58,388 bases of DNA from contig JAIQEZ010000011.1 in NCBI GenBank assembly GCA_020073545.1, positions 1 through 58,388 of the forward strand, given 5' to 3'. The notes beneath the pieces are model-generated. The model was not told the DNA's origin, did not search any database, and saw nothing but the letters and a program-made list of their open reading frames with translations. Both the position numbers and the translations under genes were made by a program. Positions 6,915 through 12,828 of this stretch are shown one piece after another (within the stretch, counting starts at the first letter, position 1; each line of letters starts with the position of its first letter). Source of the stretch: Terriglobia bacterium (GTDB taxonomy: Bacteria > Acidobacteriota > Terriglobia > UBA7540).

Positions 6915-6936
6915 GTAGCGGCGACTTCACGTCGCC
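6915..6936 (+). repeat. REP palindrome, GTAG-headed, variant stem
   Basis: GTAG, then C, then stem GGCGAC, loop TTCAC, stem GTCGCC. Compared with the main REP near the RAYT gene, both arms have changed together (GGCGAT/ATCGCC to GGCGAC/GTCGCC), so pairing is preserved. Confidence 0.75.
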
Positions 6937-6964: not shown

Positions 6965-6986
6965 GGCGATGTAAAATCGCCGCTAC
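6965..6986 (-). repeat. REP palindrome, GTAG-headed, main type
   Basis: On the minus strand: GTAG, C, stem GGCGAT, loop TTTAC, stem ATCGCC. It points in the opposite direction to the copy at 6915-6936, so the two form an inverted (BIME-like) pair 28 bases apart. It lies 4 kb from the RAYT gene. Confidence 0.8.
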
Positions 6987-7433: not shown

Positions 7434-9686
7434 ATGAAGCTTGAGTCCGTTAGAATAAAAAGGTTCCGCAGCATCGAGGACTGTGAGCTGACAAACCTCG
7501 GCGGCTTCAATGTACTTATCGGGAAGAATAATTCGGGCAAGTCGAACATCCTCTCGGCTATCCATGCATTCTTCAAATGCATACAGGGCGGCAATGTCGT
7601 GACGCTGCAGCCCCCGCACGGAGGGGAAATTGACTTCTACAAGAAAGAAACCAAGCTGCCGATTGAAATCAGCCTCAATTTCTCGCTATCCCTCGCGGAG
7701 AGGGATGCCCTCATCCAAGACATTGTGACCGAAGCGTCACAGGTCAGGAACGCTGCCGAAGGGCTCGACCCAGGCCTTCGACTAGTTGCCACGGTGAGCA
7801 TCACTCCCCCACCGCGCTCCTTCGGCTACACGAGCAGGATCGCCCTGGAAAACGCAGGAACGCCGACCGGCAAGCTTCCTCTCGCCGAGAGGACGATTCT
7901 TAGCATCACGCCTCAAACGGCACGGGAACTCCGCGACCGATTATCTGTTGCCAAACGAGCACGCGACGATGCAGAAAGTCTGCGTCGAATGCCTCGCTAC
8001 ATAGACAACGACGAGTGGGAGCGATTCCGTGCAATGATGGGGCGCGAATTGAAGGACCGGCCATCGTTGAGATCCATGTTGAGGCGATATACGCCACCGG
8101 GCCGTATCACCCCCGAAGCATTGGACGCCCTTGAATCGGCCATTGCGGCTTCTTCGTCGTTCCAGGAATTCGTCAGAGCCGTTGAAGGAATTGCCTCGGA
8201 GAAGGAGAAGGATGCTCTGACAATTCAACAAGAGCCCTTGGGAGAGAAGATCAGCACCTTCGCAGGTGAGGAAGCCGCGGTACCAAGGTATGTGCAAAGC
8301 CTGTTGGGCAAGATGTCAAATATTCGGGTCGCCCACTTCACGGAGCAGCGCGAGCCAATCGGGAAGGAAGAGGCTGAAAGACTCCTCTCGCTGAAGGTAA
8401 CGCGGGGGGGCCCCGAGATCCTGAAGAATTTCCAAGAAACAGTTTCGGGTTTGTTGGGTGTGAATATCGATGCATTTCAGAGCGAGTCGCGTTCGAGGGA
8501 CGAAGAGCGATCCGCAGAGATGGACGTAGACAATTTCCTCGTTGAGGTCAATGGGTCTGGCATCCGAGAGGCGCTTCGATTGGTACTGGACGTCGAGTTT
8601 GAGAACCCAAACATGCTGTTGGTTGAAGAACCTGAGATACATCTGCACCCCGCTCTCGAAACAAGTGTGATGCGATACCTCAAGCGCGTAAGCTCGACGC
8701 GGCAGGTATTTATAACGACACACTCGACCAATTTCCTCGACACCCCTGAAATGAACAATGTGTATCTAGTTACCAAGTTGGGTTCGACCCAAGTCCAACT
8801 GCTAGACCTGGTGGAGGCGGAGGCCCGAATCCCAGCGGAACTGGGAGTCCGATTAAGCTCCGTGTTTATGTACGATCGACTTGTCTTCGTAGAGGGGCCA
8901 CACGACGAAGACATCCTCCGTGAGTACGCTTCGAAACTAGGCATCAACTTGAGCCAAGTAAATGCGGGCTTCCTTCCAATGAGGGGCGCCCGGAATTTCG
9001 CGCACTTTGCCAGCAGCGCCACGCTGTCCTTCTTATCAAAACGCCAGGTCAGGATCTGGTTCGTTACCGACAGGGACGAGCGCGATGACTCGGAGATCGC
9101 AAAATTGAAACATCTCGTTGGGCCAAACGCAATTGTGTGCGTTCTCAAGAAGAGGGAAATGGAAAATTACTTGGCTTGCCCGCGCGCACTGGCCCAGTTC
9201 ATTGGCGTCAAAAGGGAGTTGTCGGGTCCCCCGAAGGGCCGGTCGGCACCGTCAGAGGCGGAAGTTGGCACAGCCATCGACCAGTGCGTGGAGGAGTTGA
9301 GACACGCAGCCATCGAGAGGCGAGTCGCCAAGATCCTATGCAGACCGCTTTATCCTGCGCTAGACAGGGTCTGCGACCGGTCCGGTGGCAACACCATTGT
9401 GGAGAGGGTGAGCCAGGAAGTCGATACGATGATCCAACAGCTGGAGCAGACCAAGGAGAGTGCGGGGAGGGTATTCGAAGAACAGGCCGGCCTCGTGGAG
9501 ACCCGGTGGGCTTCCTCAAAACTATCGATTGTCCCTGGAGATGAGCTTCTCGATATGGTTTGCCAGAAGTTTGGCGTGCGTTTCAAAAAGGAGTCCGGGG
9601 ACGGTGCCCGCTTGGTGGGATTGATGCAAGCCAGTGAGATTGATCCCGAGATAACAGACCTAATCAAGCAGCTGGGGTCGGCCTAG
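7434..9686 (+). CDS. OLD-family ATPase/TOPRIM endonuclease
   Basis: 750 residues. The N-terminal ABC/SMC-like ATPase has Walker A GKNNSGKS at residues 30-37, Walker B LLVEEPEIHLHP near 395-406 and an H-loop in ITTHSTNF near 428. The C-terminal TOPRIM nuclease has FVEGPHDEDIL near 485 (catalytic Glu) and VTDRDERDD near 543 (DxD metal site). This is the class 1 OLD architecture, shared with GajA of Gabija. No UvrD-like GajB helicase or reverse transcriptase lies next to it, so it appears to be a solitary OLD nuclease, probably anti-phage or from a mobile element; that role is inference. GGAGGG precedes the ATG. The gene sits in a repeat-rich island and its codon use looks less GC-biased than that of its neighbours. 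Confidence 0.88.
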   Translation: MKLESVRIKRFRSIEDCELTNLGGFNVLIGKNNSGKSNILSAIHAFFKCIQGGNVVTLQPPHGGEIDFYKKETKLPIEISLNFSLSLAERDALIQDIVTEASQVRNAAEGLDPGLRLVATVSITPPPRSFGYTSRIALENAGTPTGKLPLAERTILSITPQTARELRDRLSVAKRARDDAESLRRMPRYIDNDEWERFRAMMGRELKDRPSLRSMLRRYTPPGRITPEALDALESAIAASSSFQEFVRAVEGIASEKEKDALTIQQEPLGEKISTFAGEEAAVPRYVQSLLGKMSNIRVAHFTEQREPIGKEEAERLLSLKVTRGGPEILKNFQETVSGLLGVNIDAFQSESRSRDEERSAEMDVDNFLVEVNGSGIREALRLVLDVEFENPNMLLVEEPEIHLHPALETSVMRYLKRVSSTRQVFITTHSTNFLDTPEMNNVYLVTKLGSTQVQLLDLVEAEARIPAELGVRLSSVFMYDRLVFVEGPHDEDILREYASKLGINLSQVNAGFLPMRGARNFAHFASSATLSFLSKRQVRIWFVTDRDERDDSEIAKLKHLVGPNAIVCVLKKREMENYLACPRALAQFIGVKRELSGPPKGRSAPSEAEVGTAIDQCVEELRHAAIERRVAKILCRPLYPALDRVCDRSGGNTIVERVSQEVDTMIQQLEQTKESAGRVFEEQAGLVETRWASSKLSIVPGDELLDMVCQKFGVRFKKESGDGARLVGLMQASEIDPEITDLIKQLGSA

Positions 9687-9783
9687 CAAACGGCAGTAGC
9701 CACCGCGAGCGCCTTTCTAGCCCGCGCACGGCCGAAGGTCCGCCGATCCTAATGGTGGGCGAGCCGAAAGAGGCCGTGGGCTC

Positions 9784-9812
9784 TTCCATTTCCCACCCCG
9801 GCGGACCCACGG
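9784..9812. repeat. 30-base dispersed repeat, copy 1 (TTCCCACCC...GACCCACGG)
   Basis: A segment reading TTCCATTTCCCACCCC then GGCGGACCCACGG. Close copies lie at 11834-11863 and 12799-12828, bracketing the small membrane-protein genes of this island. Confidence 0.6.
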
Positions 9813-9825
9813 CAAATCTGCACTT

Positions 9826-9848
9826 GTAGCCCAGGCCCCCTGGTCTGG
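9826..9848 (+). repeat. GTAG-headed palindrome, CCAGGCC stem
   Basis: GTAGC followed by CCAGGCC and, after a short loop, GGTCTGG; pairing includes one G-U wobble. Same layout as a REP but with an unrelated stem sequence. Confidence 0.5.
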
Positions 9849-9889
9849 CCCTGCAGCTTTTCCAGCGGCGCGGGTTCTCGCCGCGCCGC

Positions 9890-9913
9890 GTAGCACGGCC
9901 ATCTTGGCCGTGC
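9890..9913 (+). repeat. GTAG-headed palindrome, CACGGCC stem
   Basis: GTAG, stem CACGGCC, loop ATCTT, stem GGCCGTG. A perfect 7-base stem directly behind the tetranucleotide. Confidence 0.65.
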
Positions 9914-9924
9914 CCTCGAGATCC

Positions 9925-9947
9925 CGCGGGCAGGATGCCCGTGCTAC
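9925..9947 (-). repeat. GTAG-headed palindrome, CGGGCA stem
   Basis: Minus strand: GTAGCA, stem CGGGCA, loop TCC, stem TGCCCG. It lies in inverted orientation to the element at 9890-9913, 11 bases away. Confidence 0.65.
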
Positions 9948-9990
9948 AGAGTTTGGCCGCGCCGCCAAGACCACGGTGCGGTCGAGAAGC

Positions 9991-10014
9991 CGCCCCGATA
10001 AGTCGGGGCGCTAC
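9991..10014 (-). repeat. GTAG-headed palindrome, CGCCCCGA stem
   Basis: Minus strand: GTAG, stem CGCCCCGA, loop CTTA, stem TCGGGGCG. An 8-base perfect stem. Confidence 0.7.
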
Positions 10015-10072
10015 GTATCCTTCCAACGGCTCGGTCATGGGAAAACTGGCCGCCGGTCGTGGTTTGGGGCGC

Positions 10073-10121
10073 GGGTTTATTCGCTGGCCAGGTTCCACCA
10101 CACATCTATTCGGCCCCGACG
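10073..10121. repeat. 49-base direct repeat, left copy, flanking DUF2569 gene
   Basis: 46 of 49 bases match 10761-10809 by eye. It starts with GGGTTTA, includes GGCCAGGTTCCACCAC and ends CGGCCCCGACG. The two copies lie on either side of the DUF2569 gene (10216-10716). Confidence 0.85.
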
Positions 10122-10132
10122 TATCGGGGCAG

Positions 10133-10156
10133 GCCCTGCACCATATGGTGCAGGGC
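10133..10156. repeat. Perfect 24-base palindrome
   Basis: GCCCTGCACCAT joined directly to its own reverse complement, with no loop. It is followed at once by a GTAG-headed hairpin (10158-10182). As a loop-free palindrome it could be a protein-binding site or a recombination hot spot. Confidence 0.7.
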
Positions 10157-10215
10157 AGTAGGGGCGCCCCTCGTGGACGGCCACACGCCTCTGAGATAAG
10201 AAGCAGGGTCGCTCA

Positions 10216-10716
10216 ATGGAGTTTCTAAACGGCAGGCAGCGCAAAACGGAACTGCAAGGCGTCGGCGGCTGGCTTCTGCTTTTCTGCGTCCTAGTGACTA
10301 TCATCGGCCCGGCGGTCGCAGTGTTCTCGTATTCCGCGGAGTTTGCCCGAATCCTGGAAAGCTGGGATGGTTTCGGGACTGTCGCCACGTTCCATCTGGT
10401 CGTCGATGTCGCTGGCTTGGGGCTGACGGCATTCGCAGTATATGCGGGAATGGCGCTCTGGACCATCAGGCCGAATGCCGTGCGGACGGCAAAGAGCTTC
10501 CTTATTGTGGGATTCGCCTTCAGGGCCATCACGGAGCTTGCTTGTCTATCATTGGGCACGAGCGATCTGTTCTGGGTGCCGGCGCCAACCGTAGAATCCA
10601 CCGTTGGAGACGAAGTAAGAAACGCCATTTCCTTCGTGATTTGGTTCACTTACTTCAAGGAATCCAAAAGGGTGAAAGCTACATACGGATCGCCAGATGC
10701 CGGAGCGGCAAGGTAG
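10216..10716 (+). CDS. DUF2569 membrane protein
   Basis: 166 residues, four predicted membrane segments at ~18-40, 58-82, 94-112 and ~132-147. GVGGWLLLF near the start and a last membrane segment ending WFTYFKESKRV are typical of DUF2569, whose function is unknown. The stop codon TAG (10714-10716) lies inside a GTAG-headed palindrome. The gene is enclosed by a 49-base direct repeat on both sides, which suggests it moved or was duplicated as a cassette. Confidence 0.7.
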   Translation: MEFLNGRQRKTELQGVGGWLLLFCVLVTIIGPAVAVFSYSAEFARILESWDGFGTVATFHLVVDVAGLGLTAFAVYAGMALWTIRPNAVRTAKSFLIVGFAFRAITELACLSLGTSDLFWVPAPTVESTVGDEVRNAISFVIWFTYFKESKRVKATYGSPDAGAAR

Positions 10717-10730
10717 CGCAGACCTCTGCG
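10713..10730 (+). repeat. GTAG-headed palindrome overlapping the DUF2569 stop codon
   Basis: GTAG, stem CGCAGA, loop CC, stem TCTGCG. A second hairpin with stem GCGCAGAGC follows at about 10736. The TAG of the head is the stop codon of the preceding gene. Confidence 0.6.
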
Positions 10731-11151
10731 GGCTGGCGCAGAGCGGGAGCTCTGCGCTGGGGGTTTACTCGGTGGCCAGGTTCCACCACGCATCTATTCG
10801 GCCCCGACGCGGCGACGCCGGACGACATATGGCGATGTAAAATCGCCGCTACGGGCGACGCCGGACGACATATGGCGATGTAAAATCGCCGCTACAAGAC
10901 GGTGGGGAGCCGCGCACGGCGGGCTAAGAGAAGCACCGGCGCGACACGAAGAAATTGCCGCAATGTTTTCTAATGTGGCGATGTAAAATCGCCGCTACAA
11001 GACGGTGGGGAGCCGCGCACGGCGGGCTAAGAGAAGCACCGGCGCTACGGCAAAAAATCGCCGCAATGTTTTCCAATTTGGCGATGTAAAATCGCCGCTA
11101 CAAAACCTTGATCGCCGGTGGGGACACCGGCGCGACGGCAAAAAATCGCCG
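10717..11151. other. REP cluster downstream of the RAYT gene
   Basis: No gene. The stretch is built of nested direct repeats. A 43-base unit occurs twice (starts 10812 and 10855) and a 103-base unit twice (starts about 10895 and 10998), each carrying one REP palindrome. The second copy of the 49-base repeat lies at 10761-10809. Confidence 0.75.
10761..10809. repeat. 49-base direct repeat, right copy, flanking DUF2569 gene
   Basis: Partner of 10073-10121 with three visible mismatches. It ends where the REP cluster begins. Confidence 0.85.
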
Positions 11152-11155
11152 CTAC
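10831..11155 (-). repeat. Four REP palindromes and a half copy, GTAG on the minus strand
   Basis: Identical REP cores (minus strand: GTAG, C, GGCGAT, loop TTTAC, ATCGCC) lie at 10831-10852, 10874-10895, 10977-10998 and 11080-11101. A half copy at about 11145-11155 touches the 3' end of the RAYT gene. A hairpin with stem CGCCGGTG (11113-11132), headed GTCG instead of GTAG, lies between them. All point in the same direction, opposite to the copies on the other side of the RAYT gene. Confidence 0.9.
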
Positions 11156-11661
11156 ACATCGCGCTTCCAGGGCGGGACGAACGGGTCGGGCGGTGCGACG
11201 GCCTTCTTCCAGTCGAACATCCACGAGCCAGAATAGGGCCAATCGCGAGGATCCTTGACCAGGCCCTTTCTCGCGGGGTTATTGAAGATGTACCACGCCA
11301 CGGCGTTTTCCTCTTCTCCCTCTCGCAGAACGTGGTCGTAAAAACCCTTCTCCCAGACATTTCTGATTCCGTCTCCGCGACCGACAGACGTGGCCTCGCC
11401 CTTGAATCCCTTTAACAGTGCGACAAGGCTGGAGGAATCCGCGAGGCCGACGAGTTCCAGGTGAAGATGGTCAGGCATGAAGCAGTAGGCGTAAACGTCA
11501 AACATCTGCACCCGGCATTTCTGTTTTAGGCAGTCGAGCAGGTTTGCAATCAATTGGCCGCTTGAAAGGTTAGGTCGGCGGCCCTCAGTGCAGATGGTGA
11601 TGAAATACCAATGGCGACCGACGTAGCTCTGGCGGGGAAGCCGGTTGCGTTTCCTTCTCAT
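11152..11661 (-). CDS. REP-associated tyrosine transposase (RAYT, TnpA_REP)
   Basis: 169 residues, a typical RAYT length. The Y1/HUH signature is clear: FMPDHLHLEL gives the metal-binding His-x-His, and WYIFNNPARKGLV carries the catalytic Tyr with the family's Asn-Pro motif. RAYTs are single-copy domesticated relatives of IS200/IS605 transposases. They bind and cleave REP palindromes headed by GTAG or GGAG. Here REPs lie on both sides: four behind the gene and three in the leader, in inverted orientation. The first leader REP begins at the base next to the start codon (11659-11661), so the mRNA leader itself would fold into REP hairpins. This match of enzyme and target makes the assignment secure. 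Confidence 0.92.
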   Translation of the reverse strand: MRRKRNRLPRQSYVGRHWYFITICTEGRRPNLSSGQLIANLLDCLKQKCRVQMFDVYAYCFMPDHLHLELVGLADSSSLVALLKGFKGEATSVGRGDGIRNVWEKGFYDHVLREGEEENAVAWYIFNNPARKGLVKDPRDWPYSGSWMFDWKKAVAPPDPFVPPWKRDV

Positions 11662-11751
11662 GTAGCGGCGATTTTACATCGCCACTCACCCCAACGTAGC
11701 GGCGATTTTACATCGCCACTCACCCCAACGTAGCGGCGATTTTACATCGCC
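11662..11751 (+). repeat. Three tandem REPs in the RAYT leader
   Basis: REP cores at 11662-11683, 11696-11717 and 11730-11751, period exactly 34 bases, separated by the 12-base spacer ACTCACCCCAAC. Each is GTAG, C, GGCGAT, TTTAC, ATCGCC on the plus strand. They cover the sequence immediately upstream of the RAYT start and may regulate it. Confidence 0.92.
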
Positions 11752-11833
11752 ATTCGTTCTTGGCCGCGCCGTCAAAGGCACGGCGCGGTCGAAGGGCCGC
11801 AAAGCTGCAACGCGAGCCTTGCGCTGCGGTCCC

Positions 11834-11863
11834 CTTGCATTTCCCACCCTTGCGAACCCACGG
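11834..11863. repeat. 30-base dispersed repeat, copy 2
   Basis: Reads CTTGCATTTCCCACCC then TTGCGAACCCACGG; compare 9784-9812 and 12799-12828. The preceding segment around 11757-11800 (TTGGCCGCGCCG then a CACGGCGCGGTCGAAG-like part) also resembles 9952-9988. Nothing else is seen in 11752-11992. Confidence 0.6.
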
Positions 11864-11992
11864 TCAATTAAAATGGCGAATTGATCGTGGCTACCGGCCG
11901 AGGGGCGAAACTCTGCGCGCTTCTCTGGCGCTGGCCAAATAGACGTCGAGCAAGCGGGAAGGTAAGAGTCTTTCTCTGGAGGCAAACTGGAA

Positions 11993-12652
11993 ATGAAAAC
12001 CAAATCCGCATCGATCTTTGTCGTGGTTGGCTCGTGGACGATTGTCGCCGTCATCGGCCTCCTCCTGGGCTGGTGGTTCAACAGCGCGTACTTCTCGATG
12101 CTCGGCGAAACTAGCCGCAGCATCGTCGAGTTCCTCTCGCTCACTTCCCTTTACTTCCGGGAGGACATCATGCCCTATGCGGAGCGGGTGTTTGAGGTGT
12201 GGCTCGTGGCGCAGGTGGCGGTATCTGTGCTCTGCCTGGGTGTCGCCTTGCCGAGGCTGCTGCCGACGCCTGGAGCGCGGCGTGCGGTGCTCGTGTCCGG
12301 TCTCTGCCTGCCGTTGGTCTTTTGCTTGGTCGCGGGAATTGCGAGGCCATTGACGCAGAAGGGTGTGCTTGGGCCATCGAGCCTGGACGGCCTCACGTTG
12401 CCAAAGCTTGCAGAGGGCGAGTCGGTCGTGATAGGGGGTTACAAATTCTCCAAGACTTCCTTCGGTCTGGGAGTTGAGAACCTCGGTGATACGAGATCCG
12501 TACCCAAGATCCTTGTCTATGATGTCGAATCCGCGTGGGAGAACAACAGGGGGGTCACCATCCTTGCGGCGCTCCTCTGGTTGGGTCTTGGGGCAGCAGT
12601 AGTTCGTCTCTGGACTGTGAAAGCGGGGGGCCCCGGTCAGAGTCCTGCCTGA
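11993..12652 (+). CDS. Hypothetical membrane protein with four hydrophobic segments
   Basis: 219 residues, not recognised. Hydrophobic stretches lie at ~8-27, 68-88, 97-118 and ~186-205. The loop between the last two (~119-185) is polar and probably folded. Near the ATG there is GGAGG (11978-11982) ten bases upstream. The gene is flanked by copies of the same 30-base repeat (11834-11863 and 12799-12828), like a cassette. No catalytic motif is visible. Confidence 0.6.
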   Translation: MKTKSASIFVVVGSWTIVAVIGLLLGWWFNSAYFSMLGETSRSIVEFLSLTSLYFREDIMPYAERVFEVWLVAQVAVSVLCLGVALPRLLPTPGARRAVLVSGLCLPLVFCLVAGIARPLTQKGVLGPSSLDGLTLPKLAEGESVVIGGYKFSKTSFGLGVENLGDTRSVPKILVYDVESAWENNRGVTILAALLWLGLGAAVVRLWTVKAGGPGQSPA

Positions 12653-12712
12653 GCGTGGATGGCGCATCCCGGTGCTGCGCTTTGCGCGGGGGTGACGACG
12701 AGAGGCGCGGCC

Positions 12713-12737
12713 GGGCGAACACGAGGTTCGCCCCTAC
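12713..12737 (-). repeat. GTAG-headed palindrome, GGGCGAAC stem
   Basis: Minus strand: GTAG, stem GGGCGAAC, loop CTCGT, stem GTTCGCCC. The element at 10158-10182 (GTAGGGGCGCCCCTCGTG) looks like a decayed relative sharing the CTCGTG part. Confidence 0.7.
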
Positions 12738-12768
12738 AACAGACGCTGGCGTGCCCTCAGGCGGGTAA

Positions 12769-12795
12769 CCACGGTCAGTGATTCTCTGACCGTGG
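12769..12795. repeat. 10-base stem hairpin between convergent genes
   Basis: CCACGGTCAG and its perfect complement CTGACCGTGG around a 7-base loop. It lies between the convergent 219-residue membrane protein gene and the SDR gene. No T-run follows, so it is not a classical terminator. Confidence 0.6.
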
Positions 12796-12798
12796 GCG

Positions 12799-12828
12799 TT
12801 TCCATTTTCCACCCCGGCGAACCCACGG
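12799..12828. repeat. 30-base dispersed repeat, copy 3
   Basis: Reads TTTCCATTTTCCACCCC then GGCGAACCCACGG; third copy of the repeat at 9784-9812 and 11834-11863. Confidence 0.6.

Follow-up and report, generated by a model that had tools for sequence, protein, structure and literature searches.

REP-associated tyrosine transposases (RAYTs, TnpA-REP) and their cognate GTAG-headed REPs are known as REPtrons (Nunvar 2010, PMC2817692; Quentin 2018, PMC6006769). In the draft genome of a Terriglobia bacterium (Acidobacteriota; 5.28 Mb, 261 contigs, 95.5% complete), one RAYT gene lies among palindromes that share the GTAG head and have unrelated stems. Does a single enzyme serve all these stems, or do several REP families meet at this locus? 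Both answers had been offered in a first-pass annotation of the window, i.e., the whole analysed stretch of 58,388 bp (contig C216). We consider it quite probable that the locus is an acidobacterial REPtron with a REP family of its own, whose intergenic stretch has also taken up REPs from five or more further families. Recognition by each RAYT clade would depend on the GTAG head, on the loop, and on the spacing together with the lower stem, whereas the apical 2-3 bp would need only to pair; the other families would have been left by sister RAYTs.

The RAYT gene and its cognate REPs

The RAYT gene is intact, and its frame carries the HUH motif DHLH and the class-2 tyrosine motif YIFNNP. The protein scores 92.2 bits against NF047646, the NCBI model for REP-associated tyrosine transposases (cut-off 80), and 26.8 bits against PF01797, the Y1 transposase domain (cut-off 23). 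Furthermore, E. coli TnpA-REP (4ER8) aligns with it over the HUH and Tyr regions (E 1.7e-11). Besides the Y1 domain and the motifs, the features that mark a RAYT/TnpA-REP gene and are found here are GTAG palindromes on both sides and the presence of the palindrome in multiple copies. Indeed, the canonical REP GTAGCGGCGATTTTACATCGCC flanks the gene with four copies on the left and three on the right, just as the first-pass annotation had described it on both sides. Genome-wide, this family (designated A; consensus GTAG-N-GGCG-RN-TTNAY-N'Y-CGCC) has 25 copies, nine of them in the window, and family A (GGCG-nn-TTNAY) alone appears to be cognate to the window RAYT. RAYTs of the same taxonomic family that are 59-63% identical have the A architecture as well, with other apical pairs (GC, AG, GG).

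Like known REPtrons, the locus combines an HUH-Y1 enzyme of class 2 (Y---NP) with flanking GTAG hairpins, and the genome contains several REP families, each RAYT having its own. It differs from them in the Acidobacteriota host, in the motif combination DHLH/WE/YIFNNP, which fits no single published subclass exactly, and in the arrangement of the seven family A copies beside the gene, which are head-to-tail tandems and not the inverted doublets of REPINs. The copy number of family A shows no clean link to the presence of its RAYT across genomes and was therefore left out of the evidence: four genomes (G012, with 270 copies, G001, G003 and G006) have many family A copies and no close RAYT hit. 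Such genomes, with many copies but only distant RAYT hits, count against our reading.

The first right-hand REP abuts the start codon of the RAYT gene (11659-11662), so that a hairpin sits where the ribosome-binding stretch normally lies; translation of the RAYT may be impaired by it. A gene for an OLD-like AAA ATPase with a TOPRIM domain, possibly a defence nuclease, neighbours the REP cluster.

Features of the window around the RAYT gene (positions are those of the window)
Feature	Position	Strand	Sequence or stem	Remarks
RAYT	11152..11661	(-)		169 aa, intact; HUH (DHLH) and Y---NP motifs
Four cognate REPs (family A)	10831-10852, 10874-10895, 10977-10998, 11080-11101	(-)	GTAGCGGCGATTTTACATCGCC	tandem duplications, 43 and 103 bp
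Three cognate REPs (family A)	11662..11751	(+)		head-to-tail tandem, 34 bp
Family A inverted REP pair (REPIN)	6915-6936, 6965-6986	(+), (-)	GGCGAC, GGCGAT
Family D REPIN	9890, 9947	(+), (-)	GTAGCACGGCCATCTTGGCCGTG, GTAGCACGGGCATCCTGCCCG	loop ATCYT; both stems perfect
Family C REP	9991..10014	(-)	GTAGCGCCCCGACTTATCGGGGCG	perfect stem at 10014; sorting feature there CGCCCCGA
Family F REP	10713..10732	(+)	GTAGCGCAGACCTCTGCGGG, CGCAGA	perfect stem at 10713; apparently truncated; likeness to GTAGCGCAGACCT...AGGTCTGCGG
Family E REP	11858..11894	(-)	GTAGCCACGATCAATT...AATTGACCGTGG, CCACG	one mismatch
Family E REP	12765..12795	(+)	GTAACCACGGTCAGTGATTCTCTGACCGTGG	degenerate head GTAA
Family G REP	12713..12737	(-)	GTAGGGGCGAACCTCGTGTTCGCCC	loop CTCGT; perfect stem at 12737
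Doubtful GTAG hairpin	9826..9850	(+)	CCAGGCC/GGTCTGG	one mismatch
39-bp repeat	9774-9812, 11825-11863, 12790-12828
49-bp repeat	10073-10121, 10761-10809
OLD-like ATPase	7434-9686			750 aa

GTAG-headed palindromes in the window

All GTAG heads listed in the first-pass annotation are present. Of the 22 GTAGs in the region 9820-12740, 12 stand at the head of a perfect stem of 6 bp or longer, whereas 300 dinucleotide shuffles gave 0.07 on average and never more than 1; the comparison with shuffled DNA that had been proposed thus bears out the excess. Genome-wide numbers come from pattern searches and from a 581-kb genome sample taken as stretches. In this sample, GTAG is the one of the 256 tetramers with the largest excess before hairpins of at least 7 bp (32 versus 8.0 expected), and the hairpin rate per occurrence is highest for three mutually overlapping tetramers, TAGC, GTAG and TAGG.

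When the palindromes of the window are grouped by the spacing of the head, the basal stem and the loop, six families emerge; we drew their boundaries from the sequences. Copy numbers are exact-pattern matches and hence lower bounds, and draft genomes lose repeats at contig ends. Families C, D and E have eight pattern copies each in the genome (the window pair included for D), and the reversed control patterns for A, C, D and E gave no match genome-wide. Family F gave 22 pattern matches, about 15 of which are true copies as judged by eye (3 matches for the reversed control). Family G has about seven copies, also judged by eye, with 37 matches to a G-type pattern versus 2 to its reversed control.

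This sorting changes the earlier list of six additional, unrelated stems. Its heads stand, but CACGGCC and CGGGCA belong together as opposite halves of one family D pair, and the CCAGGCC palindrome at 9826 has a GTAG head and an imperfect stem, for which no family support was found. The families that the list did hold are present; family E, with the stem CCACGG at two sites, had been missed.

It is extremely improbable that the non-cognate palindromes arose as chance hairpins or serve as terminators, their GTAG head being incidental. Intergenic hairpins are common in this GC-rich genome, and the palindromes at 9826 and 10713 are weak; however, the shuffles leave almost nothing of the 12 hairpin-heading GTAGs, C, D and E have repeated copies and empty reversed controls, and the G-type pattern far exceeds its control. 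The shuffles and reversed controls refute this explanation for all palindromes except that at 9826, with 10713 uncertain.

The non-cognate REPs are dense here, with about seven in 3 kb versus two family copies in 362 kb of unbiased genome sample. Beyond a permissive intergenic island, our model leaves this density unexplained.

Two further repeats are found in this part of the window. The core pattern of a 39-bp repeat, present three times, occurs only in the window among 13 genomes searched, and the end of the repeat, CCCACGG, resembles family E. A 49-bp repeat, present twice, has three further copies in the genome; one copy of this repeat (C21:4715) lies about 170 bp from a family G REP.

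Sister RAYTs and the other REP families

A second intact RAYT in the genome (C240) is enclosed by an inverted family E pair (L022, 11693+/12371-). The assembly yielded no RAYT for C, D, F or G; at its level of completeness, loss of their RAYT, absence from the assembly and use of the window RAYT are not fully separable. F-type REPs flank RAYTs in related genomes (L130-L132, L136, L138, L142), and D-like loops (L149) and G-like loops (L069-L077), which are less certain than the F-type REPs, also occur beside RAYTs of related genomes. The earlier suggestion of several REP families meeting here is thus well founded: families C-G recur in the genome, E owns the C240 RAYT, and REPs beside related RAYTs resemble F, D and G. 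The earlier picture of many stem families with one RAYT is not supported: family E has the C240 RAYT, and C, D, F and G have none in this assembly.

On this reading, the palindromes have their head in common because GTAG guides the canonical RAYTs in general, and not because the window enzyme handles the other families. Sister RAYTs are the most likely source of the non-cognate REPs; that of family E is still present, and the others would reside in related genomes or have been lost. The data show the presence, enrichment and copy numbers of the REPs, the association of their architecture with RAYT clades and the covariation of the apical pairs; how REPs are recognised and mobilised, and where each non-cognate copy came from, we infer.

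REP architecture and RAYT phylogeny

GTAG hairpins flank the gene within 1.5 kb at 37 of 40 related RAYT loci. REP architecture and RAYT clade go together: on a tree of 63 Y1 proteins, 52 of which had flanking REP architecture and were scored, the architecture changes 20 times, versus 34-43 times with shuffled labels. Most of the clade to which the window RAYT belongs shows the loop TTNA. At 38 RAYT loci, the density of cognate REPs falls from 4.3 per kb within 400 bp of the gene to 0.19 beyond 1 kb. Non-cognate hairpins at 38 RAYT loci show no rise toward the gene (0.15, 0.08, 0.16 and 0.08 per kb with distance), and the crowding in the window is therefore not typical of RAYT loci.

One RAYT of relaxed stem specificity, which the first-pass annotation had also considered, would mobilise all GTAG palindromes here if the head alone were decisive. 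We regard this as very unlikely, since REP architecture tracks the RAYT phylogeny, the surroundings of RAYTs show no enrichment of non-cognate hairpins, the C240 RAYT belongs to family E, and every other family differs in loop and spacing while group 3 enzymes depend on loop bases. This assessment takes into account that the GTAG head is common to all palindromes, that C, D, F and G are without another RAYT in the assembly, that E. coli TnpA-REP is reported to be substrate-flexible, and that group 3 enzymes partly tolerate stem changes (PMC8266576). Alternatively, RAYT loci could attract foreign REPs through a target preference for existing REPs, which would make the cluster a nested insertion site. 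The window and the C240 locus each hold several families within 2 kb, and copies of A, C and D sampled elsewhere in the genome are mostly solitary; given the flat density of non-cognate hairpins toward the gene, however, we consider nested insertion unlikely.

Fixed and variable parts of the REP

If, as we prefer, sister RAYTs with their own REP architectures left the other families, which parts of a REP belong to its enzyme? The search pattern for family A did not fix the two apical base pairs on either arm. These pairs are complementary in 140 of 152 copies (149 listed matches and three seen in other listings), as compared to a shuffled mean of 31, and AT, AC, GC, AG and GG all occur. When the pattern did not specify the loop, GTAG-N-GGCG was followed by TTNAY far more often than by any other loop, and family B (GCCG-nnC) and its relatives also retain TTNA. 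The relaxed stem specificity suspected earlier therefore exists within the cognate family, whose two apical pairs vary, and is not supported across families: stem flexibility is real and confined to 2-3 apical base pairs, with pairing kept.

In the Marinomonas enzyme, the loop bases T, T and A are essential, the third base is free, and the stem sequence carries little weight if paired; in the Stenotrophomonas enzyme, one loop base is crucial (PMC8266576). The Marinomonas REPtron Mb resembles the window locus in its short stem set off from GTAG and in its loop TTTA, and differs in stem sequence and spacing, the comparison being one of features and not of homology. By analogy across such distant proteins, the agreement in TTNA may bear on recognition by the window RAYT, which seems to read the head, the stem base and the loop, not the whole stem. 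The apparent puzzle of one enzyme with many stems would then become a testable rule: a REP points to its RAYT clade by head, basal stem and loop, with the apical stem free to vary. Under such a rule, REP families of uncultured genomes could be matched to their enzymes, and the results of cleavage assays can be predicted.

Families A-G resemble GTAG families 1-24 (Di Nocera 2013, PMC3733652) in the GTAG head, the stem of 6-9 bp, the division by alternative complementary stem residues and the coexistence of families in a genome. They differ in coming from Acidobacteriota, absent from the hosts given in the results of that study, against which they are set by description. Multiple REP families per genome with their own RAYTs, alternative complementary stem residues, REP classes that persist after their RAYT is gone and genes flanked by more than one REP subfamily have all been published (PMC3733652, PMC6006769, PMC3686654), so that the finding is ordinary in kind. 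New here are the host group, the division of the REP into fixed and free parts in each clade, and the finding that doublet partners are nearly always unlike.

Inverted doublets

At 30 RAYT loci, the partners differ in 51 of 54 inverted doublets (from L066-L077, L111-L145 and the window), mostly at apical arm positions, with pairing preserved inside each hairpin. REPs within one locus differ in 62 of 199 comparisons in the same orientation and in 170 of 213 in opposite orientation. In one genome (G042), 29 of 30 doublets genome-wide are heterotypic, whereas random re-pairing gave 18.0 and never reached this number (0 of 5000); in another (G050), 7 of 8 are heterotypic, which is not significant. 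For family A doublets of four genomes, the count is 26 of 32 (random 21.0; 222 of 10000 as high). As copies from one doublet are not independent, the weight rests on different base changes in different clades.

REPINs of P. fluorescens SBW25 (Bertels and Rainey 2011, PMC3116915) are likewise inverted doublets dispersed as units; their halves, however, are typically identical and form one long hairpin, in contrast to the unlike halves found here. Heterotypic doublets are known from the Y/Z pairs of E. coli (PMC6006769).

With slightly more doubt than confidence, we suggest that selection keeps the doublet halves unlike across several RAYT clades of Acidobacteriota and other phyla, compensation taking place within each hairpin and not between them, and that single-stranded doublets fold as two RAYT-readable hairpins, not as one long hairpin. 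In that case the enzyme would read each hairpin singly, by its head, basal stem and loop, and the differing, free apical stem would block pairing with the partner. The mismatch between partners is also relevant to the form in which doublets move, as a single long hairpin or as a pair of short ones. In an energy comparison, real doublets always favoured separate hairpins as compared to homotypic doublets; as any mismatch has this effect, the comparison is only illustrative.

Other Y1 genes

Two Y1 genes, C163 (L024, 10325) and C98 (L026, 9932), contain the GTAG palindrome GTAGGGGCGCAYGGCCRTGCGCCC in frame between their HUH and Tyr halves; an in-frame GTAG palindrome is a hallmark of subclass 2.4 (PMC6006769). 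Near the class-2-like genes C50 and C107, no GTAG hairpins were found. A Y1 gene of the Y---Q--HH type (G000:C110; L028, 7791-8383) lies between the members of an inverted pair, GTAGCCCACAGC-N4-GCTGTGGG; this type corresponds to subclass 1.2, described as generally without terminal structures. The same arrangement of GTAGCCCACAGC and GCTGTGGG is present in the genome G038 (L218; G038:C37, C63, C75), in which three short pairs, about 120-140 bp apart and too tight for a gene, are MITE-like.
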